A stretch of 64,000 nt of DNA from NCBI RefSeq assembly GCF_001693385.1, contig NZ_CP016428.1, positions 2,108,001 through 2,172,000 on the forward strand, in the 5' to 3' direction. The notes beneath the pieces were generated by a model. The model saw nothing but the letters and a program-made list of their open reading frames with translations, ran no database searches and was not told the DNA's origin. Each line of letters opens with the position of its first letter. Position 1 is the first letter of the stretch. The position numbers and the translations under genes are program-made. Of this stretch, positions 3,428 through 26,122 are shown piece after piece. This DNA comes from Bradyrhizobium icense (lineage in GTDB: Bacteria > Pseudomonadota > Alphaproteobacteria > Rhizobiales > Xanthobacteraceae).

Positions 3428-3649
3428 GACCGACGCATAGCCAGCGGAGATGCGCTCTGGGCCGGCTACCAGTGGCAAGTCGCACATTCGCGGGTCCGCG
3501 GCCGATGAGGTGGGAAAAATAAAATAGTGCGGCCGCCGCTGCCAATCCCAATTAAGGTTTAATTTCTTTTCGGTGGTCACTCGTTTCCGCTATTATCTAG
3601 CGACGAATCAGTGCCGCGTTCGTTTTCACACAAAATTTCGGGAACGTAC

Positions 3650-6062: not shown

Positions 6063-6245
6063 GAAGGGTGCTCTGCCTGACCTATTCTAAAGTAGCCCCG
6101 AAAAAATACGGGTCCCTCGTCCTATTATCTATTTGAGAAATATAGTAGTAATTGAGAGGGAAGCAGGATATTTATAGCCCGCTTCCATTTTCACTTTTTT
6201 GCCTGACAAAGCGTTAAGTCAAACGTTTCGAGATCGGTATTTGCG

Positions 6246-7433
6246 ATGTTGATCTTGGCCGCTCTGGCTGGATTGCTCAGCGTTCCCGTCGCTGTCCTGC
6301 TGGTTGAAGTCATTGCAGCTCTTAAGGCGCCGAAGCTGGAGCCTTTCGAGGTCAAGGAATTAAATATTGAAAAGCGCGTTGCGGTAATCGTTCCGGCGCA
6401 CAATGAGAGCGTTGGGCTGGTTCCAACGCTGCAGGACATCAAGCCGCAGCTTGGCGCCGGAGATCGCCTGATCGTTGTCGCGGACAACTGCACCGATGAC
6501 ACCGCGGAGGTTGCGGCTGCATCAGGCGCCGAGGTCATTATTCGCAACGACCCCGGGAGAATTGGCAAGGGGTTCGCGATGGGGTGGGGCATCACTCATC
6601 TCAGCCAGGACCCGCCCGATTTTGTTCTCTTCGTCGATGCCGATTGCAGGCTCCAGGCTGATTTGGTCGAAGGGCTAAAGCGGGTTTGTCATCAGGTCCA
6701 ACGGCCCGTGCAAGCGCTGTTCGTGATGCGAAGCGCCGAGAACTCGCCCGTCAATCATAGCTTCGCAGAGTTCGCCTGGGTTCTCAGAAACTGGGTTCGT
6801 CCTCTTGGATTAAGAAACCTTCGTGGTCCCGTCCAGCTGATGGGGACAGGAATGATGTTTCCGTGGAATGCGATCAGCTCGGTTCCGTTGGCAAGCGGTC
6901 ACTTGGTGGAGGATTTGAAGCTGGGTCTCGATCTCGCGGAAACGGGCAAAGCGCCGTATTTCTTTCCGTTCGTGACAGTTACCAGCACGTTCCCGACAAG
7001 CTTCAAGGGGACTGAAAATCAGCGGCAGCGGTGGGTCCAGGGGCATCTCGCCACAATCGGAAGGTTCGTTCCAAGACTTCTCACTGCGGGTTTGATGCGC
7101 GGCGACGTAAATATCCTTGTGCTGGCGCTCGATCTGTTGGTGCCGCCACTCTCTCTCCTTGCGCTGTTGATGGTCGTGACGATGGTCATGACCTCGTCAG
7201 TTACGGTGCTTGGAGGGCCATGGCTGCCAACCCTGATCGCAGGCGGCAACCTTCTTGGATTTATCTTCTGTGTTGTTCTGACCTGGTTTAAATTTGGCCG
7301 CCAGGTTTTTCCCGCGCAGGAGTTATTATCGTTCGGCTCTTTTGCATTGAAAAAAATAGGGTTTTACGGTCGGATGTTGATCGGGGGTACGGCGTCTCAA
7401 TGGATACGGACCGACCGATCGACCCCTACCTAG
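6246..7433 (+). CDS. membrane glycosyltransferase family 2 (processive type)
   Basis: This is a 395-residue GT-A enzyme with an N-terminal membrane segment. The catalytic domain shows 'AVIVPAHNES', 'VVADNCTDDT', the DxD-like 'DADC' near residue 131, the acid 'VEDLKLGLDL' and 'QRQRWVQGH' near residue 259. Two or three C-terminal membrane helices follow. The Q-x-x-R-W signature is typical of synthases that extend or start polysaccharide chains. Together with the GT4 gene and the exosortase genes it suggests an exopolysaccharide locus. The sugar is not predictable from sequence. Confidence 0.87.
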   Translation: MLILAALAGLLSVPVAVLLVEVIAALKAPKLEPFEVKELNIEKRVAVIVPAHNESVGLVPTLQDIKPQLGAGDRLIVVADNCTDDTAEVAAASGAEVIIRNDPGRIGKGFAMGWGITHLSQDPPDFVLFVDADCRLQADLVEGLKRVCHQVQRPVQALFVMRSAENSPVNHSFAEFAWVLRNWVRPLGLRNLRGPVQLMGTGMMFPWNAISSVPLASGHLVEDLKLGLDLAETGKAPYFFPFVTVTSTFPTSFKGTENQRQRWVQGHLATIGRFVPRLLTAGLMRGDVNILVLALDLLVPPLSLLALLMVVTMVMTSSVTVLGGPWLPTLIAGGNLLGFIFCVVLTWFKFGRQVFPAQELLSFGSFALKKIGFYGRMLIGGTASQWIRTDRSTPT

Positions 7434-7613: not shown

Positions 7614-7769
7614 ATGAAAGCGCATAGCCGTACCAGTCTGCCGAAATCAAAGAAGCCGAAGAAGTCTTTGAAAAAGCTCCGAGCCGTCAGCATTACGGAG
7701 CGCTATCTGGAATTACGACGTCTGCGCGAGCGCTTGTCCGAGGCCGAAGCTTTGAGAAGTTCGCAGTGA
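7614..7769 (+). CDS. small basic protein of unknown function
   Basis: This is a 51-residue protein. I start it at ATG 7614 because a strong ribosome binding site (GGAGGAGGGG) lies just upstream; the frame is open further 5' without a comparable site. The N-half is very Lys-rich (KSKKPKKSLKKL). The C-half is a likely helix (ERYLELRRLRERLSEAEAL). No family is recognised. Its stop overlaps the start of the next tiny gene. Confidence 0.45.
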   Translation: MKAHSRTSLPKSKKPKKSLKKLRAVSITERYLELRRLRERLSEAEALRSSQ

Positions 7770-7882
7770 ACAAGTTGCGTCAGGGATTAGCCCCACCGCT
7801 CTACCTGGCGGCGATCGGGATCGCCATGGTTGGCTGGTTGTGGGCGATTTTTGCCGGCGTGGAATGGCTTTTGGGGGCCTAG
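7766..7882 (+). CDS. 38-residue single-pass membrane protein
   Basis: GTG at 7766 overlaps the preceding stop as GTGA, the usual layout for translational coupling. The product starts MNKLRQGLAPPLYLAAIGIA and ends AIFAGVEWLLGA. It has one hydrophobic helix (about residues 12-34) containing three tryptophans, and a basic N-terminus. No family is recognised. The coupling and clear membrane topology argue that it is real. Confidence 0.45.
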   Translation: MNKLRQGLAPPLYLAAIGIAMVGWLWAIFAGVEWLLGA

Positions 7883-8720
7883 GTAGCCAGCCCTTATGCC
7901 GCATCCGCGTGATGCCCCCGATGCCGGCCCATCGCAGCCTGCAGATGCCTGTTTCGTCGCTCGAGGGCCTTCCGGTTTTCGCCGAATTTTCTGCCGCCGA
8001 TAGCCCGCTGTTGCATTCCTGCCGCTGCGAAGGAAAATCAGCCAAGCCCAAAATGCGTTCATATCCCCAGCCCCCTTTGTACGCTATCAACCGGGTGCAA
8101 GAGCCGTTCGCGTAGAGTTGGAAAACCGTCGGCGAATCCAGCGGCAGGCTTGCGAATCGCCCCAATAGTCGGGATTCTGGCTCGGACAGTGTTGAGTTCG
8201 ACGAGCGGCTTGGGTTGTTGCGGCACCGTTCGTTCTGGCGTGAGAGCGAGCTGGTGCTGGATGGAGCAGGGGACTGGCCGTGCCGGATAGACTGACAAGC
8301 GCGCTGCTTGCTGCGCTAAATGAATCGACCGAAATTAAACAGAGCGATTGGCTGCAGCTCGAAAGGGCCTTGCGCGGGCAATCGGACAGGGTTGATGGCG
8401 AGGCGATCAGCGACCTGAAATCGGGCCCAGAGAACCGATTCGCCGCCACGGTATGCTCGGGGATGGCCAAAGTCCGAGCGAGTTTCTGAGCTTCCCGCGC
8501 TCTTCCCGAACTTCCAGCCCTTGCCGTGAAGATTGGGTTCGCGACTATCCCTGGCGGCCTTGCCGGGCCGAGGGTTGACTGGTGCGGCTGCAATCCTCGT
8601 CTATTGAGTTTCGATTGCCGGTCGTATCGAATATCTCAGCGCCCGGATTCCACATTTGGAAAAGCCCCCGCTCAGCTCTTTTGTTATAGATGGCCCTCCG
8701 CGTTTGTGTGCCAGAAAGCC
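7883..8720. other. intergenic stretch without a convincing gene
   Basis: The only forward frame worth noting is at 8280-8489 (69 residues), but it has no ribosome binding site, signal or recognisable domain. Reverse-strand frames here have skewed, Ser/Arg/Pro-rich composition. I see no repeat or RNA gene. Confidence 0.4.
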
Positions 8721-8993
8721 ATGTGGAAAGCCTTTATCGTCCCGGCGGTCTTCACGTTGAGCGCAGCGGCGGACGCACAGGAGAGCGGTCGCATCAGGCG
8801 GCCGCCGCCCTCTGCCGCTGAGGCCGCACGGATCGCCTCTGATATGGCCATGAACGACACCCTGCTTCAGAGGGGCGACATCGTGGCCACTGACCGCGGC
8901 TTTTTTGTTTTTCGCGGGACGGCTCCGGATGGCGTGACGAATGAATTCGCAAGGGTGCCCGATCCTGCCCTGCAGGGCAAACCAGCCCGGTGA
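8721..8993 (+). CDS. small secreted protein of unknown function
   Basis: This is a 90-residue protein from ATG 8721. A typical signal peptide (MWKAFIVPAVFTLSAAADAQ) is followed by an Arg/Pro-rich linker and a compact domain containing 'LLQRGDIVATDRGFFVFRG'. That stretch looks like a small beta fold. No catalytic residues can be assigned. The reading frame stays open upstream, but the signal peptide decides the start. Confidence 0.55.
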   Translation: MWKAFIVPAVFTLSAAADAQESGRIRRPPPSAAEAARIASDMAMNDTLLQRGDIVATDRGFFVFRGTAPDGVTNEFARVPDPALQGKPAR

Positions 8994-9406
8994 CCTCACC
9001 GCAAAGCACCGGCCGGACGGTCCGCAAGCGAACCAGCCCTGTCGCCGGGAATCAGCTTCGATCCGGCCATAGACCAATTAAATGATAGCGTTAATTGCAG
9101 GCGGGCCTTGATTAAAGGCGGGACGATATCGCCGCATGGTTAATCGCGGCCGTTGAAGATTGAACCTCGGCGCCTTGTTGGAGCACACACATCTGTACGG
9201 GAATCAGCCGAACACGCGTTTATTGAAGGCGCAAATCAACCGACGCGCGCATGGGCGATCTCGTTGGACAACCTGCACGATCAGGCCGTTAACGATCAAC
9301 GCTGCCGCAGAAGATGCTGCTTGCACTGGATGAAGCTCATGGTAATAACTTGATAACAATAAACGATGACGTTCGATTTATTTGTTCGCCCTTCGAGGAA
9401 TTTAAT
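8994..9406. other. non-coding upstream region of the second PEPxxWA gene
   Basis: No coding frame with a plausible start is seen. The last ~80 bp are AT-richer and end in GAGGAA 9 bp before the ATG at 9407. They probably contain the promoter of that gene. Confidence 0.4.
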
Positions 9407-10285
9407 ATGTCGCTGCGATCTCGTTTGCTCATTGCTCTCTCAACAACCGTGCTGGGTTCTACGGCTGCATCGGCCGCGCTGGTCACTGTCACCAGCTACG
9501 AGATGAACAACGGCAATGGGCTGACCCAGAACGGCAACTACAACTACTTCGATACGAGCTACTCTGTTCCGACATATGCCAATACCAACGGCTCTTCGTT
9601 GGTCGTGCCGTCAAATGGCGCCCCCAAGGAAGCCTTACTGACAGGGGGTACCGGCAAACTGACCGACAATATCATTCCAGCGCAGAATTACTCGTTCGTG
9701 CCCCAAGACTACGTCGGCTGGAAATATCAGGATCCCACCATCATTTTTAACCTCGAGGCGGGCAAGAGCGTTAGTACGATTACATTGTATGTAGCGAGTT
9801 CGTACGCTGGTTCGCTCGGCTTCATGGGCCTTGTCGGTCAGCCAGCGTCGGTAGACGTCTCGATCACCACGCCTGGCAATTCGACTTTCACCCCGAGCTA
9901 TACAACGACCTTTACGGACTATCTGGGTGACAAGTACAACGGAACGGAAGTTATTACGCTTACTTTTGACTCGCCCATCGTTTCCAGTGACACTTTCAGC
10001 TTGACCCTGAACAGGGGACCCTTGCTGCTGGATGGCATCAACTACTACAACAATCATGTCGCCGGATACGGCTGCGACGCCGCCGGGTGTTTCCTCGATA
10101 ACGTCAACGACTTCAAGAACAGTGCATACATCCCAAATCTTGAGCCTTGGATATTGCTGAGCGAAGTGCAGTTCACCGCTGCCGTACCAGAGCCGTCCAC
10201 CTGGGCGATGATGATAATTGGATTTGCGGGGTTAGGTTTTGGCATGTATCGGCGTAACGCCAGACGCGTGCCAGCAACGGCATAG
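9407..10285 (+). CDS. PEPxxWA-CTERM sorting domain protein
   Basis: This is a 292-residue exported protein. The start at ATG 9407 (MSLRSRLLIALSTTVLGSTA) has GAGGAA upstream and gives a proper signal peptide ending near ASA. The body is Asn/Thr/Tyr-rich, in line with a beta-sandwich surface domain. The C-terminus shows the complete sorting signal: 'VPEPSTWAMM', a hydrophobic helix (IIGFAGLGFGMY) and an Arg-rich tail. It is a second probable substrate for the exosortase at 1.7 kb. Confidence 0.87.
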   Translation: MSLRSRLLIALSTTVLGSTAASAALVTVTSYEMNNGNGLTQNGNYNYFDTSYSVPTYANTNGSSLVVPSNGAPKEALLTGGTGKLTDNIIPAQNYSFVPQDYVGWKYQDPTIIFNLEAGKSVSTITLYVASSYAGSLGFMGLVGQPASVDVSITTPGNSTFTPSYTTTFTDYLGDKYNGTEVITLTFDSPIVSSDTFSLTLNRGPLLLDGINYYNNHVAGYGCDAAGCFLDNVNDFKNSAYIPNLEPWILLSEVQFTAAVPEPSTWAMMIIGFAGLGFGMYRRNARRVPATA

Positions 10286-10450: not shown

Positions 10451-13057
10451 TCAATAGTTTATCGACGTCTGCGCGAAGATCCCCTGAGCCCGCTGATCGC
10501 CTGCGAGGCGCCAGCGATATTGTAACGTCAATTCCCAGTATGAAGGCGGCGCCGTGTATTTCGTTCCGCCGAACCAGTAGCGCAACGAACCGCCTGCGCC
10601 GGCCGAGTAGGCGGAACGGTTGGCGAATGAATCGTCGTAGTTTGCAGCCAGCACGGCGTGCGGGAAGAACACCAGGTTGCTGCTGATCGCATCGAGCCGG
10701 AAGCTTCGTCCGAAACGGCCTTCCATGATCGCGACCAGCTGTCGCTTCTCGAGGAAGCGATCCACTTCCGCGTAGACGTACCAGGTCGGCCAGCTCGCAT
10801 CCAAGACACGCAAATCGGTGCCGACTGTGTAGGAGTAGAGCGCGCGCAACAGCGTGTCATCGCGCGCCGCATCGCCAAGCGCGATAAGTCTGTCTACTTC
10901 AAAAACGAGGTTGGCGTTCGAGAACGGCTTCCAGCGGGCGCCCACCATGCCCTGTGTCGTGCGTCCGCCCGTCGGTCCGCCGGACTGGTCATAGAGGGTT
11001 TCGAAAAGTCGGCCGAACAGCTCGAATATCGCGCCATTCCTGTATCCGAACCCTTCCGGGCGATAATAGAACTCGGTTCCCAGTTGCGATGTGTAACTGC
11101 TCGGCGCGGTCGTCGTCAGGAACGGATTGGGCGCCGAACCGACTTTGCCGTAGGAAACCGAAGTATTGATACCCCACACCCGGGCCAGATCTGAAACTGT
11201 TCGACGCGTCTCGAACAGCTTTTGATCGTCAATATCGATCCGTCCGTTTGCCTTGGCGTCGATCCCTTCCATCAAATAGGCGATGGCCTTTGGATTTTCG
11301 AAGCGACGCATCGCGGTATATCCCGCATCGATCGTGGCCCGAGCTGGCAATTGGCCGTTGCCATGCGCGCGATCGAAGCGAGCCAGAGCTACCTCATCGT
11401 TACCAACGGCGACGGCAAGATAGCCAACATCGGCATCCCGGACAGAACCCAACCTGCCATGGGCGATCGCCTGATCAAATACGATGCGGGCTTCCGGCTT
11501 GCGGTCCAACTCGACCAGCGTATTGATTTGCGCGCGCAGCGCGCCGTCCCTCTGAACAGCGGTCGTTGCGAACCGTTCCGCTGTCCTGAACTCGGCAAGC
11601 GATTCTTCCTTTCGACCGAGCGCCTGCAGTGCATAGGCCTTGCGGATCGACGTGTCATAGCCGACGGCCAATTTCTGAAGTGCGCGCAAAGCGCGCATGG
11701 GCTCGTTGGAAGTCAAGGCAGCATCGGCGAGGGAAAGTCGAACGCTGCGGGCTTGAGCGGGCGGCAGGCCCCGCTTCAGGGCCGTTTCCCAATCCGACAT
11801 CGCGCCACCGAACTTCTTGAGCTTACCTCGCGCATAGCCGCGTTGTGCATAGATCTCAGCGCTTGAATGGCCCGCCCCGATCGCCTTGGTCGCTTCGGTC
11901 TCAGCTTCCGCGGGGCGGCCGGCCGACATCAGGATGTTGATCAGCAGGAGGCGGCTTGCGGCGACCTCGGGTTCAAGCTGTACGGCTTTGCGCGCCTCGA
12001 CGATGGCTAGCTCGTAGTCCTTGTCTCGTTCAGCCCGGTAGGCCCGTTCCTTTGCTTCAAAGATTTCTGCTGCGGCCTTTTCTTCGGGCGATGCAACAGG
12101 GGTCAATATGCTGAGGACCGCGGGGGCCTCGAGTTCGCAACTAACGCCGTTGGCGCTGGTCGAACATTCCTGCACCGGCGTTGGCATTGTATTGCCGTTG
12201 TTCTGAAGCACGCCCCTGCGCTGGCTTGCGCCTTCGGCATCGGTGAGGCGGGTGATGACCTTTGGGTCGGTTCGCGAATAGCTACCCAATAATTCCATCG
12301 CGGCGTTGAAGTCGCCTGACGCCAGGGCTGCATCCGCCGAGATCAGCCGGATATTCTTCTGCTGAGAAGCTGTCAGGCCCGGGATCGCCAGGGCAGCGTT
12401 GAAGTCGGAGACAGCATCGGCGCGCTTCCCCAGCCGCTGGTTGATATAGCCGCGCCATACCAGTGGAACATAATTCGCTCGATCGAGCGCAATCGCTTCG
12501 GTGACGGTTTCCAAAGCTCCCGACAAATTATTGTCGGCAAGCTGGGCGTTCAGCAGCAACAGGCGATACGACATCGAGTCCGGCACATAGTCGACTGCAC
12601 TGCGCGCCGCCCGCACCGCGGCTTTGGCATCGCCCTTCTCAAGCGCCTTGTAGCCTTCGCTTGCCGGCGATAGGGCGAGGCGTTGCCGGATATTCGCTTG
12701 CCGTCCTTGGAGTTCCTGATTGCCTGCAAACGCCGCCGAGGCGACCTTCGTTGCTTGCTCGGCCTGGGGGAGGTCGCCCGCGGCGACCAGGGAATCGATC
12801 AGAAGCAAATGCAGGCGGAGGAGGTCAGGACGGAGTGCCACAGCCTCTGCGGCGCTCGCCGCGGAGGCCTTGTAATCGCCCTGGCCGAACGCCTTGTAGG
12901 CGGTCTCCGCCGCCGCATAGGCTTCGCCCTCCAGCGGAGGACCGCCATCCGCCACCTGGGCGCTGGCGCCCGCGCACAGGACCGCGGCGAGCAAAAGCGC
13001 AGCCAGCGCCGCCCGAAAAGCCGTCTGGCGCAGGTATTTTCCGCCCCAATTGCCCAT
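10451..13057 (-). CDS. TPR protein with NfrA-like C-terminal domain (outer membrane)
   Basis: This is an 868-residue protein with a signal peptide (about residues 1-34, AALLLAAVLCAGASAQ). Then come two TPR-rich blocks (about 40-280 and 330-620) with repeated 'A-x(n)-A-[IV]-x-L-[DER]-P' helices. The C-terminal ~200 residues ('VSYGKVGSAPNPF' onward, ending 'FAQTSINY') resemble the C-terminal domain of the phage N4 receptor NfrA, a likely beta-barrel. In other bacteria such proteins sit in the outer membrane and work with membrane GT2 synthases. That fits the GT2 gene at 6.2 kb. The exported polymer is not known. Confidence 0.72.
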   Translation of the reverse strand: MGNWGGKYLRQTAFRAALAALLLAAVLCAGASAQVADGGPPLEGEAYAAAETAYKAFGQGDYKASAASAAEAVALRPDLLRLHLLLIDSLVAAGDLPQAEQATKVASAAFAGNQELQGRQANIRQRLALSPASEGYKALEKGDAKAAVRAARSAVDYVPDSMSYRLLLLNAQLADNNLSGALETVTEAIALDRANYVPLVWRGYINQRLGKRADAVSDFNAALAIPGLTASQQKNIRLISADAALASGDFNAAMELLGSYSRTDPKVITRLTDAEGASQRRGVLQNNGNTMPTPVQECSTSANGVSCELEAPAVLSILTPVASPEEKAAAEIFEAKERAYRAERDKDYELAIVEARKAVQLEPEVAASRLLLINILMSAGRPAEAETEATKAIGAGHSSAEIYAQRGYARGKLKKFGGAMSDWETALKRGLPPAQARSVRLSLADAALTSNEPMRALRALQKLAVGYDTSIRKAYALQALGRKEESLAEFRTAERFATTAVQRDGALRAQINTLVELDRKPEARIVFDQAIAHGRLGSVRDADVGYLAVAVGNDEVALARFDRAHGNGQLPARATIDAGYTAMRRFENPKAIAYLMEGIDAKANGRIDIDDQKLFETRRTVSDLARVWGINTSVSYGKVGSAPNPFLTTTAPSSYTSQLGTEFYYRPEGFGYRNGAIFELFGRLFETLYDQSGGPTGGRTTQGMVGARWKPFSNANLVFEVDRLIALGDAARDDTLLRALYSYTVGTDLRVLDASWPTWYVYAEVDRFLEKRQLVAIMEGRFGRSFRLDAISSNLVFFPHAVLAANYDDSFANRSAYSAGAGGSLRYWFGGTKYTAPPSYWELTLQYRWRLAGDQRAQGIFAQTSINY

Positions 13058-13579: not shown

Positions 13580-15703
13580 ATGTCCACCAGGGAACCGCTA
13601 CCTGCATTCGAGGATCGGGCCCCGAGCGATCGCTATTGCGACTTGATTCTCACCGGCGGCGTCACGAGCTCGATTGCCTATCCAGCAGCCGTTTTCGCGC
13701 TCGCGACCGCCTACCGCTTCAACAGCATCGGCGGCTCCTCGTCCGGTGCCGGCGTCGCAGCGTTGGCGGCCGCCGCCGAATACCGGCGTCGGCACGGCTC
13801 GTCGCACGGATTCCAGATCATGCTGGAGCGTACCGCTGCCGTCGCCGACAACGTGCACGGCAAGACCCGCCTCGCGTGGCTTTTCCAGCCTGAGGAAGAG
13901 AACAGGCGTCTGTTCAATGCGCTGTTGCCCGGCTTTGCCAAGCCATCCGGCAAACTATGTGCATTGGCACTCGGGATCGTTCGCTCGCATGCAATCGTCT
14001 TTATCATCGCGATCATCATCCTCGTCATCGCGCTCGGGGCTGCCGCACTGCGATGGATCGACTATTCGTCCGCTTTCCTGACCGGAACGCTCTCGTTCGT
14101 TGGGGCAGTTATCGCGATGCTCATCTTCGTCGCATGCGAGGTCAGACGCTTGGTGCGGCACGACTATGGATTGTGCACCGGGAGTCGCGTGGGGAAGTCG
14201 CCACTCCCGCCGCTCACCGACTGGCTGCACGGCCTTATTCAGGAGATTGCCGGCCGCAAGGTGGACGATGAGCCCTTGACCTTCGCGGACCTGGCGAAAG
14301 CCCCAGGCTCGCCACGGGAAACTCTGAACGACCCCTGCTCGGCAGGGGCCAGTTCGATCAATCTGCAGATGTTCACCACTAACGTGACCCATGGGCGGCC
14401 GTACATCTTTCCGCAGCAGGAAGACGGCGAGGTGGACGACCCGCCGCTCTATTTCCGCTCGAGCGAGATGCGTCGGCTGTTCCCCCAAAGGGTGGTCGAA
14501 TGCATGATGAGGAAATCGAGCTCGTACGATGGCAATGCCAAGCCGGCGCCGGTCGAACCCGCTCCGGTGGGCCTACTCCGTCGTGTGGCTCGCTGGTTCG
14601 TGTCGCTCGTTGGATCGTCGGTCGCGGGAGGCGAGGATGAGCCCGAGGAGGAGCCACTTTATCCGCTGCCGAGGGAGCACCTGCCGATCCTGGTGGCGGC
14701 GCGCATGAGCGTCAGCTTTCCGGTCCTGTTCAGCGCGGTGCCGCTCTGGATCCTCGACGAGCGAGACAAGCAGAAGCCCGTGTTCAGGCGGTGTCTATTC
14801 TGCGACGGTGGCATCTGTTCGAACTTTCCGATCCATCTCTTCGATAGCCCGATCCCTTCCTGGCCTACTTTCGGCATCTCGCTGCACGAAATTCCCCAGA
14901 GCGAGCAAGGAGCGGCGCGCGCGCGGCGGCCTTGGTGGAGTTTGTTTCGATGGTGGCGGCTTTGGCGGAGGACGTTGGCGTGGATCTGGCTGTCCAGCCA
15001 GCAGTGCTTGGGGACGCGGTGGACCGGCCTTCCGAGGAAATACGGCGTGGTGCGGCTGCCGCGAGACCATCTCGAAGGCAGGGAGGACCAATGGAGCGAG
15101 TTCGAGGCAGAACCCGGATCTTTTGACAGGCTGTCTGGCTTCTTCAGCGCACTTGCTTCAACGACGATTAACTGGAACGACGCCACGCTGGCTCGCCTGC
15201 CTGGGGTCCGCGAACGCGTCGCGCGGGTGAGGCTGCGTAGCGGGATCGGTGGCCTGAACATCCGGATGACGGGCGATCAGATCAGGGGGTTGGCCGATCT
15301 GGGGCGCGTGGCAGCGCTCAAGCTGCTCAAGCGATATGCCTTTCCCGTCGCGCGGCCTTCCGACGAACTGTCCGACGACAAACTGTCCGACGGCTGGAAC
15401 GAGCATCGCTGGGTGCGACTCAACGTGCTGCGAGACAGCCTTGCAACGAGCCTGGCCGGGCTGACCTGGGCGGCGTCTCACGTCGGTTATGGCAAGCCGC
15501 TTCGCGACCTGATCCGTCTGGCGATCGACGAACCGGTGCTGAAAAAGGACAAGGATTCGCAACTGCTCGCTGCCCAGGCGGCCGCACTGGAGGGAGCGCT
15601 GGACGCGCTGATCGAGGCGGAGCGCGCATTGAACATGTCGACAGCCGGCCAGCCTTATAGGCCGTCGCCAAGGCCGGTGATGCGGGTGCGCCCGCCACTG
15701 TAG
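13580..15703 (+). CDS. patatin-like phospholipase with membrane segments
   Basis: This is a 707-residue protein. The patatin fold is marked by 'LILTGGVTSSIAYP' (glycine-rich oxyanion loop, about residues 22-35), the G-x-S-x-G nucleophile elbow G52-S-S54-S-G56, and the catalytic 'DGG' near residue 408. Two hydrophobic helices (about 130-155 and 165-190) inserted between elbow and DGG suggest membrane attachment. The protein is much longer than single-domain patatins. It should release fatty acids from membrane lipids. The gene ends 35 bp before the DyP-P450 fusion, so the two are probably co-transcribed. Lipid specificity is unknown. Confidence 0.8.
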   Translation: MSTREPLPAFEDRAPSDRYCDLILTGGVTSSIAYPAAVFALATAYRFNSIGGSSSGAGVAALAAAAEYRRRHGSSHGFQIMLERTAAVADNVHGKTRLAWLFQPEEENRRLFNALLPGFAKPSGKLCALALGIVRSHAIVFIIAIIILVIALGAAALRWIDYSSAFLTGTLSFVGAVIAMLIFVACEVRRLVRHDYGLCTGSRVGKSPLPPLTDWLHGLIQEIAGRKVDDEPLTFADLAKAPGSPRETLNDPCSAGASSINLQMFTTNVTHGRPYIFPQQEDGEVDDPPLYFRSSEMRRLFPQRVVECMMRKSSSYDGNAKPAPVEPAPVGLLRRVARWFVSLVGSSVAGGEDEPEEEPLYPLPREHLPILVAARMSVSFPVLFSAVPLWILDERDKQKPVFRRCLFCDGGICSNFPIHLFDSPIPSWPTFGISLHEIPQSEQGAARARRPWWSLFRWWRLWRRTLAWIWLSSQQCLGTRWTGLPRKYGVVRLPRDHLEGREDQWSEFEAEPGSFDRLSGFFSALASTTINWNDATLARLPGVRERVARVRLRSGIGGLNIRMTGDQIRGLADLGRVAALKLLKRYAFPVARPSDELSDDKLSDGWNEHRWVRLNVLRDSLATSLAGLTWAASHVGYGKPLRDLIRLAIDEPVLKKDKDSQLLAAQAAALEGALDALIEAERALNMSTAGQPYRPSPRPVMRVRPPL

Positions 15704-15738
15704 CGAACAATTGCAGGGATAGGAACGAGGGAACCGCC

Positions 15739-18700
15739 ATGCAGATTGATATACAGAGCAAGTCGAGGAGCCTGTTGGGCGTCACCGACCTCACCCTAGC
15801 GGCAAAAATTAAGCCCGGGCTGATCCCGGCACTGGACTCGCGCAGCTACGAAAGCCGGCTGCGACTACTGTTGAGGACGCTGAACCTGCTGCGCGTTTCG
15901 TCACTGGAGGCGGAGCCGACGTCACTGATCGCCGACGCGGTCGATCGAATCCGGGCCATTCACTCCTTCCGCCTTGCGATCGTCGGGGAGGATCCGCCAA
16001 AGCGGCTCCTGCTTTCGGTCGCATTCGATGGCGGGTGGGAGCCCTACATGCGCCGCATCTGGCGTGATTTGGGGCCACTTCTGGACGTCATTTTTTGTAA
16101 CTGCGAGGGTTACCTTGATGCCCACAGCCACGATTTCCCGGCCTACGCGGGCTGGGTCCGATCGGCCCAGGTCACTACTGAATTCTTCTACAACGCCAGC
16201 GCGCTGACCGTAAACGACCTGCACTACCTTCGGCAGGAGCGACAGGGGTGGCACGACGCCGGTCGCCGCGGCCTTCTTGAGGAGGCGCTATCAGCCCTGA
16301 CCAGGCTGTACCGGCTGACTGACATGCATCTGCAGCTTGCAAGTGCGAACGACGGCGACTCTCTGCTGCGCGCCGCAAGGCATCTGTTGCGGGATCCCGC
16401 CCGTACACTAATCGAGAAAGCCCGACAGAGCGAACTCGACGCGACGCTACAAGCGGCGCTGACTTGGTTCGATAGGTACGAGGCCGGCTTTCTGAAGCAG
16501 GCGCTGCCGGCTTTGACCGCGTTGTACCGGCTGAGCGACATGTATCCGCCGCTTGCAGATGTGCCTGACGGCGACTTTCTGCTGCGCGCCGCAGGGCATT
16601 TGTTGGGGGAGGAACTCGCCCAGTGCATCGGGAAAGCCCGGCAAAAAGAGCTCAACCCGACGGAACGAGCGGCGCTGACTTGGTTTGCTAATTACAAGGC
16701 GAAGGCGCTGGATGGCCGCGCCACCACAGCGAAATGGGATCCTCTCAAGGTTCAGGGCGGCATTATCGAGGCCTACACGGGCGCCACACATGCTTGCCTG
16801 CTGCTGGTCTCGCTCAAGGACTCGGCAGCGGCGTGCGACATGCTTGAATACCTCAAGCCGGATATCCAGCACACCAGCGCCACCGCATTGGAGGCGGCGA
16901 CGGCCAAGCCATTCGTTAATGTCGGATTCACCGTCCAGGGGCTCACGATCGCAGGCGTGCCGAACGGCACACTTGACCTGCTGCCATATGAGTTCCGGGA
17001 GGGTATGGCGGCGCGGGCCAGCATCCTCGGCGACGTGCGCCACAACCATCCGATCAACTGGTCCCTCCCGGAGCGCAATTGGCCCGAGCCGCCACAACAC
17101 GAGCGGGAGCGCGTGGAGCTGTCATCGGTCCATGCGATCGTCATGTACACATGCAAGGGACCTGCGGATGAATGGCAGGATATGGCTAGCGACAAGCATC
17201 CGCTGCGCGGTGCGGTCTTGCAATTTAACGAAAAGCTTTCCGGCAAGGGCGTGCAGATCCTTTCGGTGCAGAGCATGCGGCGCCTGGTCGGCTCGGGAAG
17301 TGAGCCTCCCCGGGACCATTTTGACTTCGTGGACGGCATCAGCCAGCCATGGCTGGAACCGCCTCAAAAGCCGGCCCGCTCCAACGAAGTCATGACTGGC
17401 GACGTAGGTTACAAGAACATCCCCCGAGATCGACCGACGAGGGACAAGGTCGTGACTGGCGACTTGCTGCTCGGTTACGAGAACTCCTTCGGCGATCCGC
17501 CGCTGACCGGCAAACTCTGGGATGACAGCACCTTCCTAGTCGTGCGCAAACTGGAGCAAGATGTCGACGCGCTGCACACCGTACTGAAAGAGAGCGGAGA
17601 CGTGGAGGGGACAAAGGCGAAGTTCATGGGTCGCACAGGTGACGGCGAAGTCTTGATCGAAGACGAGACGATCAACAGGAGGGGCAACGACTTCGACTAT
17701 TCGAAAGACGCAGAGGGAAAGGCTTGCCCATTCCAATCCCATATCCGACGCGCCAATCCCCGCGGCACCCGGGATGATATCCGCACTGTGCCCCGGATCA
17801 TGCGACGAGGCATGTCCTATGGTCTGCCTTATAGGGAGAAGCCGAACGCCAAACGTGGTTTATTCTTCATGGCGTACAACGCGTCGATCGCAGAGCAGTA
17901 CGAGGTCATCCAGGCTTGGCTGAGCGGCAGCAACAGCAGTGACCAGAATACGTACTCGGCCCTACGAGATCCGTTTGTCGGCGTGCCACTGGACGGTGAT
18001 CCGCACACCTTTGTGCTCCACGGCGCCGAACCAGTGAAGCTACCGTTGGACCGGCCGATCGTCACAATGAAATGGGGTCTGTACGCCTTCGTCCCGTCGA
18101 TCAAGGCGATCGACGAACTCACGGAGCTTGCAAAGGCAGCGGCAAAAATCGAGTCCATTAAGGACAAGGATAATCCGAAGAAGAAAGACCAGCGTGCCGC
18201 AGAGCTCGCCGTGCATGTGCAGAAGGGCGCGGCGGTCATCGCCAAGCTGAGACGAACCGAACAGCAACTGGGTTTCGACTCGGCGGCGGACCAATGGAAG
18301 ATTGCGCTTGAGGATATAAACGCACGTATGTTCGGCATCAGCCAAGCAGTATGGGCGGCGATACGGGAGTTGCACGGTGGGGTGCTGCGGACGCCATATG
18401 GGGTGTTGGTATGCAAGAAGGATCTCGTGACCGAAGTATTCAATAACGGCGGAAGGGGGGACCCGCGCTACACGGTGACGGGCTATGCCGAGCGCATGCG
18501 CGCGTCCTTCGGTGAGATCTATCTGGGCAAGGACGATGACCGGCTGAGCACGTCGAAATACCGCGCCGAGGCTTGCCCTGCCAACAAAGCAATAATGGCC
18601 GTCAGCCGCGAGGCGGCGTTCACAAGCTCTTTTAAGCACACGCAGGAAGCGCTCAGATCCCTCGTCCCAGACGACGGCGAGAAAAGGTTACAGGTAAAGG

Positions 18701-19542
18701 ACATCGTCGACGACACCCTGGCGGGCATCAGCAAGGAGTGGTTCGGCCTGCCCGATGGCGAGCATGTGGCGTGCGGCGGCTGGCATTGGCGATCGGACAA
18801 GCCTACCTGCCCGGGCCACTTCCACTCGCCGTCACGGTACATGTTCCAGCCCAACCCGGGCTTGGAAGCGACCAAGGTGGGCCAGCAGCACGGCAAGGAC
18901 CTATTCAACGCAGTCGGCAAGCTCATCGAGGCGCAACGAAAGGCCGAGAGGAACCTGGGAACACTCGGAAACGCGTTGTTCGATGCATACTCCAACGACC
19001 AGGCGCAGCTGACCTCCGAGAAGAACGCGCAGCTGACAAGCACGCTGATCGGCGTGATGATGGGCTTCCTTCCGACCGTCGACGGCAACATCCGCGGGGC
19101 GCTGTTCGAATGGATCAGCGACCGATCGTTGTGGGACCATCAGCTCGCCTATCTGGCCGATAAAAACCAAGACCGCTTCGTAAAAGCTTGTATGGTCCTG
19201 ATGGGCCCGCTGACGAAAACCCTGCTCTTGCGACCCGTTCCGGAGCTCGTGTGGCGCACCGCACTTGAGCGGCATTTTTTGGGACCCGTTGAGGTCCGTC
19301 CAGGCGACAAGATTGCGGTGAGCATCGTGTCAGCAACGCAAGAGTGCCGTCTCAACGACGACAACGACGGCCTATACCTCCTCTTCGGTGGCAACCGCAG
19401 AGAGAAGGGCCATCCCACCCACGCATGCCCGGGCTACGAAATGGCCATAGGTGTGATGCTGGGTATGCTGGCCGGACTGCTGGAATGGGCGCGGCTGCGG
19501 CCTACAATGTCGCCAATGGAATTGAACGTGAGCCGGCGTTGA
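15739..19542 (+). CDS. DyP-type peroxidase / cytochrome P450-like fusion protein
   Basis: This is a 1267-residue protein with GAGGGAA before ATG 15739. Residues 1-180 resemble the ferredoxin-like lead domain of DyP proteins ('LLLSVAFDGGWEPYM'). Residues 181-324 are two 72-residue repeats. Residues ~330-830 are a DyP peroxidase: catalytic Asp532 in 'DFVDGISQP', proximal His668 in 'CPFQSHIRRANPR', distal Arg689/690 in 'RRGMSYG'. Residues ~840-1267 are P450-like: an I-helix-like 'MMGFLPTVDGN', a K-helix/PERF-like 'PVPELVWRTALER', and a haem loop 'LFGGNRREKGHPTHACPGYE' with ligand Cys1230. I cannot find an intact ExxR. The protein probably binds two haems. With the patatin upstream it may oxidise released lipids. 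Both domains are well supported; the joint reaction is inference. Confidence 0.85.
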   Translation: MQIDIQSKSRSLLGVTDLTLAAKIKPGLIPALDSRSYESRLRLLLRTLNLLRVSSLEAEPTSLIADAVDRIRAIHSFRLAIVGEDPPKRLLLSVAFDGGWEPYMRRIWRDLGPLLDVIFCNCEGYLDAHSHDFPAYAGWVRSAQVTTEFFYNASALTVNDLHYLRQERQGWHDAGRRGLLEEALSALTRLYRLTDMHLQLASANDGDSLLRAARHLLRDPARTLIEKARQSELDATLQAALTWFDRYEAGFLKQALPALTALYRLSDMYPPLADVPDGDFLLRAAGHLLGEELAQCIGKARQKELNPTERAALTWFANYKAKALDGRATTAKWDPLKVQGGIIEAYTGATHACLLLVSLKDSAAACDMLEYLKPDIQHTSATALEAATAKPFVNVGFTVQGLTIAGVPNGTLDLLPYEFREGMAARASILGDVRHNHPINWSLPERNWPEPPQHERERVELSSVHAIVMYTCKGPADEWQDMASDKHPLRGAVLQFNEKLSGKGVQILSVQSMRRLVGSGSEPPRDHFDFVDGISQPWLEPPQKPARSNEVMTGDVGYKNIPRDRPTRDKVVTGDLLLGYENSFGDPPLTGKLWDDSTFLVVRKLEQDVDALHTVLKESGDVEGTKAKFMGRTGDGEVLIEDETINRRGNDFDYSKDAEGKACPFQSHIRRANPRGTRDDIRTVPRIMRRGMSYGLPYREKPNAKRGLFFMAYNASIAEQYEVIQAWLSGSNSSDQNTYSALRDPFVGVPLDGDPHTFVLHGAEPVKLPLDRPIVTMKWGLYAFVPSIKAIDELTELAKAAAKIESIKDKDNPKKKDQRAAELAVHVQKGAAVIAKLRRTEQQLGFDSAADQWKIALEDINARMFGISQAVWAAIRELHGGVLRTPYGVLVCKKDLVTEVFNNGGRGDPRYTVTGYAERMRASFGEIYLGKDDDRLSTSKYRAEACPANKAIMAVSREAAFTSSFKHTQEALRSLVPDDGEKRLQVKDIVDDTLAGISKEWFGLPDGEHVACGGWHWRSDKPTCPGHFHSPSRYMFQPNPGLEATKVGQQHGKDLFNAVGKLIEAQRKAERNLGTLGNALFDAYSNDQAQLTSEKNAQLTSTLIGVMMGFLPTVDGNIRGALFEWISDRSLWDHQLAYLADKNQDRFVKACMVLMGPLTKTLLLRPVPELVWRTALERHFLGPVEVRPGDKIAVSIVSATQECRLNDDNDGLYLLFGGNRREKGHPTHACPGYEMAIGVMLGMLAGLLEWARLRPTMSPMELNVSRR
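16279..16710 (+). repeat. tandem 72-residue duplication inside the DyP-P450 protein
   Basis: Two adjacent 216-bp units (16279-16494 and 16495-16710) encode similar segments. Compare 'ALTRLYRLTDMHLQLASAND' with 'ALTALYRLSDMYPPLADVPD', both continuing into 'LLRAA-HLL' and 'AALTWF'. The offset is exactly 72 codons. The segment is predicted helical and lies between the N-terminal domain and the peroxidase core. Confidence 0.8.
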
Positions 19543-19770
19543 GCTGCCGACGCGCTGGCGAGAGCGCGCGCTGTGTCCTGCCTGAATGTGCCGGCGTCAG
19601 CACAAGTTCAGCGCTCGCAAGGACGGTCAAGAACGTGTAAGATCGTGGCACCTAATTTTCGACGTGCCGGTTGAAACGACCGGTTGGGCCCTGCGAGCTC
19701 TTGCTGTCGACGTAATGAGTTCGAAACTGCCGTCCCAAAAGGAAGTCCTTTAAGTGGCACGGTGAGTGAC

Positions 19771-22700
19771 ATGACCAATCGAAGACAGGAAGAGGCAAGA
19801 TCGCGGCGCAGATATCTTGCGATCCTATTTTCGGACTTGTCAGACTCCGCCCGCCTCGCGGCAGGTATGGAGGCCGAAGACTTTTCGGATCTGCTGAGTC
19901 ACCTCCGCCGCGCCTATGAAGACATCATCCCAAGGCACGGTGGAACGATTGTCCAGATTCGGGGGGACGGCCTGCTGGCCAGCTTCGGTTATCCGGAAAC
20001 ACATGAGGACGATGGACGCCGAGCGACCGAGGCCGCGCTTGATCTTCACGACTTCGTTCGAAGAATCCCACTTGACCTCTCACCCCGCACCTTGCCGCCG
20101 CTGCATCTGCATACGGGAGTTCACTCCGGCTTGGTACTTCTTGCCGATGGGGATGATCTTCATGGACGGCTTGATTTGTTGGGTAATACTGTAAATGTTG
20201 CGGCGCGCCTTTCCGACGTTGCGCAAAGCGACGAGATTTTAGTCAGCGAAGAAACGCTGGGCGCTGAAAGCCACTTCTATGAGACTACGCCCAGGCGATC
20301 CCTTAGCCTCCAGGGGATAATCCAGCCGATCGCAGTCTACGGCATCCTTGGTCGCGCTGCCGTCGGCACACGATTCGAAGCAAGATCGATGCGGGGTCTA
20401 ACGTCATTCATAGGCCGCCAAACCGAACTCCAGGCTTTGAAGGGAAGCCTCTACGACATAATAAAAGGGCAGCCGCAATATGTTGCGATCGTCGCACCCG
20501 CGGGTATGGGAAAGACCCGGCTCGTCGAGGAATTTCTCCGCGACTCGGCAAATTCTGATTGCCGGATACTGCGAGGTTACTGCGAAAGCTATCTAAGCGC
20601 CGAGCCCTTACAGCCATTCCTCCAGATTCTCCGATTGTTGCTGGGCCTGGACTATGGAATGACGGCTGCGCGCGCCGCCAAGGTGCTTGAGAGAACGCTC
20701 GCGGAAATTAATCCCGATCTCCTCAAGTATCGGTTTGAGTTCCTGCGTACTCTTTCGCTGGATCCCGTGAACGGGCAACTGGAATCGCGTAATATTTCGC
20801 TGGAAAACACGATCGCCGCGATATGCAAGCTTTTCGATGCCTTAGTCATTTCCAAACCTGTGGTGCTATTCATCGACGATTGGCAATGGGCCGATGTCGC
20901 ATCGCGTCAGGTGCTCGAAGCGATAAGACGCGGCGACAATCGGACGTTGTTCGTGCTCGTTGCAAGCCGCGAGCTTGGCGATGGTAACGTGGCGATCGGT
21001 GGCGCGAACATCTTAACCCTTGCGCCTTTCAGCGCTGACGAAGCCGAGGAAATCATTCGTCAACTACTTCCTGGAAGCAATCCGTTCACCGTTACAAGAA
21101 TCAGGGAGCTCTCTGGCGGCAATCCGTTGTTTATTGAAGAGCTATGCCACTCCGTTGCGCATGACAGCCCGGATCACAACCGGATTGGCCGCATCCACGG
21201 CGGCGAGGCATGGTTGGAGAAACTCATAGAATCCCGCGTCGAACGACTGAAGCCCGAGCAGATTGATCTGGTTCGCACGGCAGCCGTTATTGGCAATGTC
21301 ATTCCCACTTGGCTGCTTGAGAGGCTCACCGGCTGTGGGGAAAGCCATCCACTTATCGCAACGCTCGCTGCACAAGATCTCATTTTTCCCGGCGAGCAAT
21401 CGGGAACACTTCGATTCAAGCACGGCATTGCGCGTGACGTGATCTACGACTCAGTTGGTCTGCGCCAGCGCAATGCGCTGCATAAATGTATCGCTGACAC
21501 GCTGAGAGAGCATGGACCGGCAGGCGCGCAGGAAGAAGCTTGGGAACTACTTGCGTATCACTACGGCGCATGCGGGAAGGTGGTCGAGGCCGCTCAGTAC
21601 GCCGAGGCCGCGGGAGATAAAGCCGCCGGGGCCTCGGCGTTGGACCGTGCCCAAATACAGTACGGCGCCGCTCTCTCGGCCCTCGATCCGGATTCTTCTC
21701 AAGAAAACTATGAACGTTGGATCTCCATAGCGCAACGACTGGCTTTGGCCTGCGTATTTGATCCGTCAAGGGATCAACTGGAGTTTCTGCAACGTGCAGT
21801 CGTCCTTGCGACAGCCCACCACGATCAGCGCGCGCTTGCGCGAGCCGAATATTGGGTAGGATACATCAACTACGCGCTAGGGGAGCTGGCTTATGCCACA
21901 CGCCACTTGGAAACCGCGCTTGCACAAGCCACGGCCGTCGGCGACGAACCGCTTGCTGTGCAAATTCGAGCGGTGTTGGGGCAAGCCTGTGCGGCGGCAG
22001 CGGAATACGACAAGTCCCTCGTGTTGCTTGACGAGGCAATCTCGATAAAGCGTCAATTCCGCAAACGCGGTCGGCTCCCTGTTGCACTTGCTTATTCGTT
22101 GGCCTGCAAAGCAACGGTCCTCGGCGACCGCGGGCTATTCGAGCAAGCGCACGCATGTTTAGACGAAGCTTTGGCTGCAGTTCATGATTCAGGCCATGAG
22201 GTTGAGGCGTCGATCTTGTGTTGGAAAAGCGCCGTCAGTTTGTGGCAGGGCCGTTGGGAGGACGCACGAGCAGCTGCGATCAAGGGCCAGCATATCGCAG
22301 AGCGAGTGAGGAGTCTGTATTTGTATGCAATGAACCTTTCATTAGGTGGATATGCGAGTTGGATGACGCAACGGTCCCAGAAATCATTGCAGGCGATCGT
22401 AGATGCCACGTCATGGCTCGAGAACCGCAATCGAGGACTGTTTGTATCATTGAATCACGGTTGGTTGGCTGACAGCTTGGTTGAAAGTGAACGATGGCAG
22501 CAGGCGAGGCACCATGCCGCTCGTGCGCTGTTGCGTAGTCGACGGCATGACCGGTTGGGGGAAGCCATGGCCTACCGCGCGATGGCTCGCGCCTCGGCTG
22601 CCGGGCATAACCGGAAGTCGCCGGAAGTGTATCTCGCTCTGGCGATGAAGAACGCGCTTGCCAGAGGAGCACGACACGAGATTGCGGTCACGCAGCTCTG

Positions 22701-22839
22701 CGACGCCCAGATACGACTTGCTTGCGGAGAACGCGCGCACGTAGCCGAGCTATTAGACCAGGCGGAGAGCCTGTTTGAAGCAATGGGGATGACTTGGCAC
22801 ATCGAGGCAACCCGCGATTTGCGTCGACGGTCAAGGTGA
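19771..22839 (+). CDS. class III nucleotide cyclase - AAA ATPase - TPR regulatory protein
   Basis: This is a 1022-residue protein from ATG 19771 (GTG 19762 is an alternative). Residues ~10-200 are a class III cyclase with both metal-binding Asp sites ('ILFSDLSDSARLA', 'RGDGLLASFGYP') and the 'NTVNVAARL' transition-state segment. The position that is usually Lys in adenylate cyclases reads Gln in 'IVQIRGDG'. A STAND-type ATPase follows ('FIGRQTEL', Walker A 'APAGMGKT', Walker B 'VVLFIDDWQWAD'), then a long helical TPR-like C-terminus. Similar proteins are abundant in Bradyrhizobium and are taken as signal-dependent cyclases. It lies 228 bp downstream of the fusion gene on the same strand, but a functional link is not shown. 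Confidence 0.85.
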   Translation: MTNRRQEEARSRRRYLAILFSDLSDSARLAAGMEAEDFSDLLSHLRRAYEDIIPRHGGTIVQIRGDGLLASFGYPETHEDDGRRATEAALDLHDFVRRIPLDLSPRTLPPLHLHTGVHSGLVLLADGDDLHGRLDLLGNTVNVAARLSDVAQSDEILVSEETLGAESHFYETTPRRSLSLQGIIQPIAVYGILGRAAVGTRFEARSMRGLTSFIGRQTELQALKGSLYDIIKGQPQYVAIVAPAGMGKTRLVEEFLRDSANSDCRILRGYCESYLSAEPLQPFLQILRLLLGLDYGMTAARAAKVLERTLAEINPDLLKYRFEFLRTLSLDPVNGQLESRNISLENTIAAICKLFDALVISKPVVLFIDDWQWADVASRQVLEAIRRGDNRTLFVLVASRELGDGNVAIGGANILTLAPFSADEAEEIIRQLLPGSNPFTVTRIRELSGGNPLFIEELCHSVAHDSPDHNRIGRIHGGEAWLEKLIESRVERLKPEQIDLVRTAAVIGNVIPTWLLERLTGCGESHPLIATLAAQDLIFPGEQSGTLRFKHGIARDVIYDSVGLRQRNALHKCIADTLREHGPAGAQEEAWELLAYHYGACGKVVEAAQYAEAAGDKAAGASALDRAQIQYGAALSALDPDSSQENYERWISIAQRLALACVFDPSRDQLEFLQRAVVLATAHHDQRALARAEYWVGYINYALGELAYATRHLETALAQATAVGDEPLAVQIRAVLGQACAAAAEYDKSLVLLDEAISIKRQFRKRGRLPVALAYSLACKATVLGDRGLFEQAHACLDEALAAVHDSGHEVEASILCWKSAVSLWQGRWEDARAAAIKGQHIAERVRSLYLYAMNLSLGGYASWMTQRSQKSLQAIVDATSWLENRNRGLFVSLNHGWLADSLVESERWQQARHHAARALLRSRRHDRLGEAMAYRAMARASAAGHNRKSPEVYLALAMKNALARGARHEIAVTQLCDAQIRLACGERAHVAELLDQAESLFEAMGMTWHIEATRDLRRRSR

Positions 22840-24967: not shown

Positions 24968-26122
24968 ATGAGCGCTGAAATCAAACCCTATCGCATTTCG
25001 ATCGGTGACGACGTCCTCGACGACCTCAGATCGCGGCTGCGTAACACGCGCTGGCCGGAAGCCGAACTGGTCGACGACTGGAGCCAGGGCGCGCCTCTGA
25101 AATGGATCAAGGACATCTGCCGCTACTGGGCTGAAGAGTACGATTGGCGTGGGCGCGAGGCGCGGCTCAACCGCTTTGCGCAGTTCACCACTGAGATCGA
25201 CGCGCTCGACATTCATTACCTGCATGTGCGTTCGCCGCATCCGGACGCAATGCCGCTGCTCGTCACGCATGGCTGGCCGGGCTCGGTGGTCGAGTTTCAC
25301 AAGGTGATCGAGCCCTTGACCGACCCGACCGCGCACGGCGGCAACGCCGCCGACGCGTTTCACGTCGTTTGCCCGTCGCTGCCCGGCTTTGGATTTTCGG
25401 AGAAGCCGAAGACAACCGGCTGGGGCATCGACCGTATTGCATCGAGCTGGGCGGTGCTGATGGATCGCCTTGGCTATGCGCGATACGGCGCGCAGGGCGG
25501 CGATTGGGGATCGGCGATCACCACCGCGCTCGGCGCGCAAGACCCGCAACATTGCGCCGGCATCCACGTCACACTTGCAATGTCGATCCGCCCCAATGTG
25601 GAAGGCGAGCCGACGCCTGAGGAAGCGCGTGCGTTGAAGGGCATCCAGCATTATGCCGACTGGGATTCCGGTTATTCCAAGCAGCAGTCCACTCGGCCGC
25701 AAACGCTGGCGTATGGCCTGACTGACTCGCCGAGCGGGCAGGCGGCATGGATCCTGGAAAAATTCTGGGCGTGGACCGACTGCGACGGGCACCCCGAAAA
25801 CATCTTCGGCCGCGACGAACTGCTCGATAATGTCATGCTGTACTGGGTGACCGCCACCGCCGCTTCATCGGCGCGCCTGTACTGGGAAAGCTTTGGGCCG
25901 AAGCGCCGGACGGCTCACAAGGTGTCGGTGCCGACCGGTGTTGCGGCCTTCCCGAAGGAGATCGTCACGCCGGTGCGAAAGTGGATGGAAGCGAGCTACA
26001 CGAATATCCAGCACTGGAGCGAAATGCCGAAGGGCGGTCACTTCGCGGCTTTCGAGCAGCCTGAGCTGTTCGTGCGGGAGGTGCGGGAGTTTTTCCGGAA
26101 ATTGCGAAAGGTCCCGGCATAA
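24968..26122 (+). CDS. epoxide hydrolase family protein (alpha/beta hydrolase with EHN domain)
   Basis: This is a 384-residue soluble hydrolase. The N-terminal EHN domain ('PYRISIGDDVLDDLRSRLRN') precedes an alpha/beta-hydrolase core. The core has the oxyanion motif 'HGWPGS', the nucleophile Asp179 in 'GGDWGS' and a late His in 'PKGGHFAAFE' (about residue 355). These are the residues of epoxide-opening hydrolases, giving a diol product. Length is typical of the family. The physiological substrate is not evident from the neighbours. Confidence 0.85.
   Translation: MSAEIKPYRISIGDDVLDDLRSRLRNTRWPEAELVDDWSQGAPLKWIKDICRYWAEEYDWRGREARLNRFAQFTTEIDALDIHYLHVRSPHPDAMPLLVTHGWPGSVVEFHKVIEPLTDPTAHGGNAADAFHVVCPSLPGFGFSEKPKTTGWGIDRIASSWAVLMDRLGYARYGAQGGDWGSAITTALGAQDPQHCAGIHVTLAMSIRPNVEGEPTPEEARALKGIQHYADWDSGYSKQQSTRPQTLAYGLTDSPSGQAAWILEKFWAWTDCDGHPENIFGRDELLDNVMLYWVTATAASSARLYWESFGPKRRTAHKVSVPTGVAAFPKEIVTPVRKWMEASYTNIQHWSEMPKGGHFAAFEQPELFVREVREFFRKLRKVPA

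Follow-up and report, generated by a model that had tools for sequence, protein, structure and literature searches.

A DyP peroxidase-P450 fusion protein with lipase and nucleotide cyclase neighbours in Bradyrhizobium icense: a candidate lipid-oxidation module

In fungi and oomycetes, oxylipin synthesis is known to involve fusions of a peroxidase to a P450. The fungal Ppo enzymes or linoleate diol synthases (DOX-CYP; CYP6001-6005) carry an N-terminal haem peroxidase/dioxygenase and a C-terminal P450 in one protein, and this P450 needs no redox partner (PMC13049297, PMC5919972). The oomycete CYP5619 proteins likewise join a P450 to a haem peroxidase/dioxygenase, with the peroxidase at the C-terminal end (PMC5919972). 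Here we describe a protein of comparable design from a 64,000-nucleotide stretch of the Bradyrhizobium icense genome (contig NZ_CP016428.1, positions 2,108,001 to 2,172,000; "the window" hereafter denotes this whole stretch). It differs from Ppo in that it is bacterial, in that its peroxidase is of the DyP family rather than cyclooxygenase-like, and in that a nucleotide cyclase is its near-constant neighbour. The best-supported reading of the locus, which we hold tentatively, is a lipid-oxidation module tied to cyclic-nucleotide signalling.

The first-pass annotation of the window had proposed a patatin-like phospholipase followed after 35 bp by one protein with both haem domains, and this arrangement was confirmed (13580-15703 and 15739-19542). 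By applying two peptide patterns to GTDB genomes, 69 further fusion loci were obtained (n = 70 with the window), of which 65 could be aligned and were used both for counting residue conservation and for the tree. The features of the locus are as follows, all on the + strand:

13580..15703, +, patatin-like phospholipase of 707 aa (PF01734, 43.8 bits, above the cut-off of 27.7)
13733..13747, +, GSSSG nucleophile elbow of the patatin, residues 52-56 (GxSxG conserved in 11/11 homologues)
14804..14812, +, Asp-Gly-Gly of the patatin, with Asp409 (DGG conserved in 11/11 homologues)
15739..19542, +, DyP-P450 fusion protein of 1267 aa, one open reading frame (ORF) with two haem domains
15739..16272, +, N-terminal domain of the fusion, residues 1-178, predicted alpha+beta, family unnamed (predicted local distance difference test, pLDDT, of the model 86.4)
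16270..16713, +, linker with a tandem internal duplication, residues ~178-250 and 250-322 (42/72 identical, 58%)
16741..18108, +, DyP peroxidase domain, residues ~335-790 (Pfam)
17332..17334, +, DyP Asp532, distal (64/65)
17740..17742, +, DyP His668, proximal haem ligand (65/65)
17803..17805, +, DyP Arg689, distal (65/65)
18109..19539, +, P450 domain, residues ~791-1267 (structure model, hhalign)
19063..19089, +, I-helix motif GFLPTVDGN of the P450, residues 1109-1117, with no Asp/Glu at the acid position
19426..19428, +, haem-thiolate Cys1230 of the P450 in FGG..HACPG (65/65)
19684..22839, +, class III nucleotide cyclase - AAA_16 ATPase - TPR protein (PF00211 59.1, PF13191 79 and TPR_12 32.7 bits, all above cut-off)

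The peroxidase half indeed carries the complete DyP haem site that had been noticed at first, given that Asp532, His668 and Arg689 are retained in nearly every or every aligned locus; their distal (Asp532, Arg689) and proximal (His668) roles are presumably those of DyP enzymes in general. The domain exceeds the cut-off of Pfam Dyp_perox_C (30.6 against 20) and lies below those of NCBIfam TIGR01413 (76.6 against 100.5) and Pfam DyP_N (15 against 27.5). At the position of the GxxDG motif the window protein reads DxxDG, with Gly533 conserved in 63/65. Upstream of the DyP domain, the model of the N-terminal domain gave no match in the PDB at E <= 0.001, and this domain also occurs as separate genes (e.g., in loci L108, L111, L115 and L120). 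The linker duplication lengthens the window protein; a full extra copy is also present in P0003, and in none of the other 29 rows of alignment A1, which comprises 31 rows with the window protein among them.

The P450-type Cys-loop of the first-pass annotation likewise held up, since the C-terminal domain is a real but divergent P450 (pLDDT of the model 93), and the best 50 Foldseek matches of this model were P450s without exception. Besides Cys1230, both His1228 and Arg1173 are conserved in 65/65. The Pfam p450 model found no match in the window protein and a single one (E 0.35) among 31 relatives. ExxR of the K-helix is usual in P450s, if not universal; it is absent from the window protein, and any E..R at residues 1145-1172 was seen in 11/65, mostly off the hhalign register. 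The I-helix pattern [AG]x[DE]T was found in 0/65, so that the acid-alcohol pair of O2/NADPH monooxygenases lacks its acid. In the hhalign register, [AG]Gx[DE]T reads GFLPT, with Pro at the acid position in 61/65, Asp/Glu in none and the Thr retained in 55/65; shifting the register one residue the other way likewise left the acid in 0/65. The Phe-to-Cys spacing of the haem loop, which is 7 in standard P450s, is 14 in 33/65 (modal extra length seven, with a wide range).

No ferredoxin or P450 reductase was found among the neighbouring ORFs scanned; a flavin/NAD-type oxidoreductase lies ~8 kb downstream of the cyclase. The P450s of CYP74, prostacyclin synthase (PGIS), thromboxane synthase (TXS) and DOX-CYP, which are free of redox partners, have I-helices that differ from those of monooxygenases (PMC13049297, PMC10813956). 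Because the I-helix acid is absent, no reductase was found among these ORFs and partner-free P450s have I-helices unlike those of monooxygenases, it appears likelier that the window P450 uses peroxide or hydroperoxide than O2/NADPH. In this respect it would resemble CYP74 (allene oxide synthase, hydroperoxide lyase), which requires neither O2 nor redox partners and has nine extra residues in its haem-binding domain (PMC10813956). In the window P450 family the haem loop is usually longer than standard too, though with seven rather than nine as the modal extra length; ExxR is mostly lost there, unlike in CYP74, and the likeness is one of such features rather than of sequence kinship. CYP74 does not figure in the VIA list, where absence excludes nothing.

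With regard to the lipase, the window patatin shows the GxSxG motif, the DG[A/G] dyad and the Pfam match of its family, together with a hydrophobic stretch at residues ~130-190 (judged by eye). Absence of the patatin from homologous loci had been named beforehand as grounds for rejecting the first interpretation, and this outcome partly came about. A patatin precedes the fusion, directly upstream and with the same orientation, in each of the 11 loci that have one (in alpha- and betaproteobacteria), but it was missing from 59/70. In nine of these 11 loci, 10-56 bp separate the patatin from the listed start of the fusion ORF; in the other two (L004 and L044) the mechanically assigned fusion start falls within the patatin. 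A GDSL/SGNH lipase is present in 22/70 loci, fused to the C-terminus of the protein in 15 and encoded separately in 7 (next to the fusion in six of these, and ~3.8 kb off in L064). The catalytic blocks GDS and GND are found in 22/22 of these lipases and the His block in 20/22; when four of the proteins were scanned with Pfam GDSL models, L013 scored above cut-off, L012 and L019 below it, and the separate copy of L011 gave no match. Altogether 33/70 loci carry either lipase, and 0/70 carry both.

On the tree (midpoint-rooted, built with a quick method and supported by the Shimodaira-Hasegawa-like approximate likelihood ratio test, SH-aLRT, only), the patatin label required 3 changes and the fused-GDSL label 5, whereas shuffled labels needed 9.5 and 13.7, respectively. 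The patatin clade (8/9 rows with patatin, the ninth, L005, having no upstream DNA; the patatins of L038 and L055 sit outside it) is the sister of a GDSL clade in which 20/31 rows carry GDSL. The remaining rows of the GDSL clade are one Bradyrhizobium subclade of nine, L015, which runs off its contig, and L029, which is without GDSL. The GDSL/SGNH lipase thus replaces the patatin in the sister clade. A further clade of 13 rows carries neither lipase. Two loci lacking both hold other genes upstream of the fusion: in L051, a beta-lactamase-family serine hydrolase (7644-8897) lies 86 bp upstream and is possibly another esterase in the lipase slot, and in L031 a protein with LCAT, CHAT and TPR-S domains (3-4043) lies ~1.7 kb upstream.

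The most constant neighbour of the fusion is the class III cyclase, which went unmentioned in the first-pass annotation. It adjoins the fusion in 63/64 loci with at least 900 bases downstream (L021 being the exception; six of the 70 loci end at or near a contig edge and were left out). Four loci (L011, L012, L033 and L042) have a GDSL gene between fusion and cyclase, the gap extends to 1.7 kb in L052 and 5.5 kb in L043, and the cyclase lies upstream in L070. Identities of fusion and cyclase correlate with r 0.927 over 52 loci, a value reached in 0/999 permutations and to which shared species history contributes; the next cyclase paralogue in the window's own genome scores 213 bits compared with 2277. 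Two Asp positions taken to bind the metal are conserved in 54/54 each, in keeping with a class III cyclase, and the AAA_16 ATPase is probably of the STAND type. The listed start of the gene is a TTG at 19684, an ATG at 19771 being likelier.

A protein search scored 7998 candidates and returned 883 relatives, with identities of 38-100% for the 120 listed (query included). Almost without exception, the 69 loci come from Pseudomonadota (among them Bradyrhizobium, Comamonadaceae and sphingomonads); one record is titled Deltaproteobacteria. A complete fusion was counted by hand in 22/195 genomes of the window's genus, its own among them, and in one further genome (G035) contig ends interrupt it; a broader profile count of 94/195 takes in other DyPs too. 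Of 398 genomes drawn across the phylum, the P450 profile matched two, namely the window's own and one other Bradyrhizobium genome.

Unfused and rearranged relatives in Bradyrhizobium combine the same parts in other ways. L103 holds a cyclase, a DyP and a stand-alone P450 of the window-fusion family, and L104 such a P450 with a cyclase and a RoxA-like di-haem protein; a DyP was not found in L104. In L108 an N-domain gene accompanies a DyP protein of 1190 aa and a cyclase. In L109, L111-L117 and L126, a DyP occurs with a catalase-like protein and a cyclase, often with an N-domain gene too; this unnamed protein of ~440 aa (22.5 against the Pfam Catalase cut-off of 25 where scanned, in L109) stands in the place of the P450 in these DyP-cyclase sets. 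In L119-L124 the DyP lies beside a RoxA-like protein. The CxxCH spacing is 234-236 in the three RoxA-like proteins checked. A catalase accompanies the DyP in L128-L130, L153 and L166, with a cyclase in four of these five. In L127, L149, L164, L167 and L168, a P450 of another subfamily is found with an N-like-domain protein, a DyP and a cyclase, the P450 matches of the last three being weak. Finally, L105-L107 encode proteins of ~1530 aa with an N-terminal P450, an N-like domain in the middle and a C-terminal DyP (L105 2836-7425). P450 and DyP are therefore fused in both orders, this reverse one being that of CYP5619 but with a DyP. As side observations, the N-domain, DyP and RoxA-like di-haem genes of L120 and L123 are preceded by a gene of the PAS histidine kinase type and have no cyclase nearby, and in L154 and L155 the DyP and N-domain genes adjoin cyclase-type proteins of unusual size (2093 and 2144 aa).

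A second haem enzyme was found beside 18/20 unfused DyPs (L111-L130, roughly in score order) and a cyclase at 12/20, compared with 1/20 each in 20 random Bradyrhizobium genome stretches scanned with the same profiles (one P450 and one cyclase). The corresponding Fisher p-values, from hand tallies, are 6e-8 and 4e-4, and overstate the effect because the loci are related. The RoxA-like partners recall the RoxA-related, periplasmic 10S-DOX and 7,10-diol synthase of P. aeruginosa (PA2077/PA2078), whose haem-site spacings are 245 and 235, compared with 199 in RoxA (PMC4496055); they are likened here by class and spacing rather than by direct alignment, and the excerpted text of PMC4496055 places no DyP or P450 with PA2077/PA2078. 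The catalase-like partner, itself below the Pfam cut-off, recalls the catalase-type haem enzyme that acts on a fatty-acid hydroperoxide in coral allene oxide synthase or hydroperoxide lyase fusions to lipoxygenase (PMC5617202).

The analogy with Ppo drawn at the outset is strengthened by the lipase in 33/70 loci, by the loss of the P450 acid and by the catalase-like or RoxA-like partners of related DyPs, and weakened by the many loci that lack the patatin or show neither lipase. In the mechanism that we infer, the lipase (here the patatin, in the sister clade GDSL/SGNH) would free an acyl lipid, and the DyP domain, using peroxide, would oxidise this lipid or an already oxidised one. The fused P450 may then rearrange or hydroxylate the (hydro)peroxide without a reductase, like CYP74, prostacyclin synthase and the Ppo P450 domains, and the cyclase-ATPase-TPR protein may report product or pathway state as cyclic AMP or cyclic GMP. 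Substrate, order of reactions, use of hydroperoxide, place in the cell and connection with the cyclase are all putative in this scheme, as is an oxylipin pathway in the window locus. The lipid reading is favoured because two unrelated acyl-hydrolase folds fill the same role and because the partner haem enzymes (RoxA-like di-haem proteins, catalase-type enzymes and self-sufficient P450s) come from classes with some members that act on fatty acids or hydroperoxides; each of these links is weak alone, and their common direction constitutes the argument.

Several observations weigh against the lipid reading. No DyP is known to us to form hydroperoxides of fatty acids or to oxygenate lipids, and no signal peptide was seen by eye on the DyP and P450 proteins, whereas PA2077/PA2078 are periplasmic. 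Neither lipase was seen in 37/70 loci (some cut by contig ends), and the separate-GDSL label does not cluster on the tree (6 changes compared with 6.8 in shuffles). The cyclase lies on the opposite strand in 59/63 loci and is co-directional in 4 (the window, L002, L003 and L066), so that it usually does not form one operon with the fusion, a shared transcript being the exception; moreover, the position taken as its transition-state Arg is not constant (Arg in 31, His in 19 of 54). Lastly, among the next 20 DyPs by score, a second haem enzyme was found in 3/20 strictly, or in 6/20 when the P450 of L127 served as query, compared with 1/20 in the control; a cyclase was found in 9/20. Since the pairing fades in these more distant DyPs, it belongs to the window's DyP group and not to DyPs generally.

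Alternatively, but rather unlikely in our view, the fusion might oxidise an aromatic or natural-product substrate (a lignin-type phenol, a secondary metabolite or a plant compound) that the esterase-like partners deacylate, with the cyclase protein only regulating. Aromatic compounds are the substrates for which DyPs are best known, record titles place many of the hosts in soil or on roots, the P450 is rare outside the genus, and the P450 of L127 matches natural-product P450 families, far below cut-off; PMC9327799, cited in connection with DyP aromatic substrates, concerns lignin. Nevertheless, the two unrelated acyl-hydrolase folds in the same place, the catalase-like and RoxA-like classes among the partners and a P450 without the acid expected of an O2/NADPH monooxygenase all argue against an aromatic substrate.

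It is improbable that the locus is a stress or defence module, in which the ATPase-TPR cyclase would sense an insult and its cyclic nucleotide would trigger membrane damage (patatin/GDSL) and oxidation (DyP-P450). Antiphage systems make use of STAND ATPases, of nucleotide cyclases and of patatins, CBASS includes patatin effectors, and a cyclase plus a patatin in one locus is also seen in Pycsar and CBASS. The patchy distribution and the CHAT-LCAT-TPR-S protein upstream in L031 would suit such a role as well. However, PADLOC gave no match at E <= 1, and hence no recognised Pycsar or CBASS effector, for either the patatin or the fusion. The cyclase domain matches PADLOC PycC profiles (best E 8.6e-13), as a class III cyclase would in any case. 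Fusion and cyclase are moreover co-inherited over long distances, and 37/70 loci show neither lipase. Least probable of all is the reading of the P450 domain as a scaffold that has degenerated and lost catalysis, or as a sensor of haem or substrate, on a working DyP. The loss of ExxR in most sequences and of the I-helix acid in all 65 and the failure of Pfam p450 to recognise the domain would favour this reading, but the invariant Cys1230, His1228 and Arg1173, the stand-alone copies near a cyclase (L103, L104) and the altered I-helices of working peroxide-type P450s (PMC13049297, PMC10813956) speak against it.

Elsewhere in the window, an epoxide hydrolase (EHN plus alpha/beta hydrolase; 24968-26122) lies 2.1 kb downstream of the cyclase and would suit epoxy-lipid products; it seems not conserved in L002 and L003, judging from ORF sizes alone and with no dedicated search made. 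On the other side, a PEP-CTERM protein (9314-10285) is followed on the opposite strand by a TPR protein (10451-13057) that carries the C-terminal domain of the phage N4 adsorption protein NfrA, with glycosyltransferases nearby (4869-7430).

No earlier description of the conserved DyP-P450-cyclase set was found in searches of open-licence papers. A bolder and doubtful extension of the lipid reading is a four-part bacterial lipid-mediator circuit, built from unrelated parts and wired like the animal one, in which the lipase would correspond to phospholipase A2, the DyP to cyclooxygenase and the P450 or catalase-like protein to prostacyclin or allene oxide synthase, with a cyclase answering the product; the second haem enzyme of the DyP would then be an interchangeable cassette by a recurrent cyclase. 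If true, this would make such loci a family of signalling systems based on small molecules in Proteobacteria. Should the lipid reading itself be true, the bacterial, DyP-based version would mean that the same pathway logic arose independently, and DyPs would gain a lipid role not known for them. In soil and root bacteria, the locus would then also provide a genetically tractable link between oxidised lipids and signalling by cyclic nucleotides.

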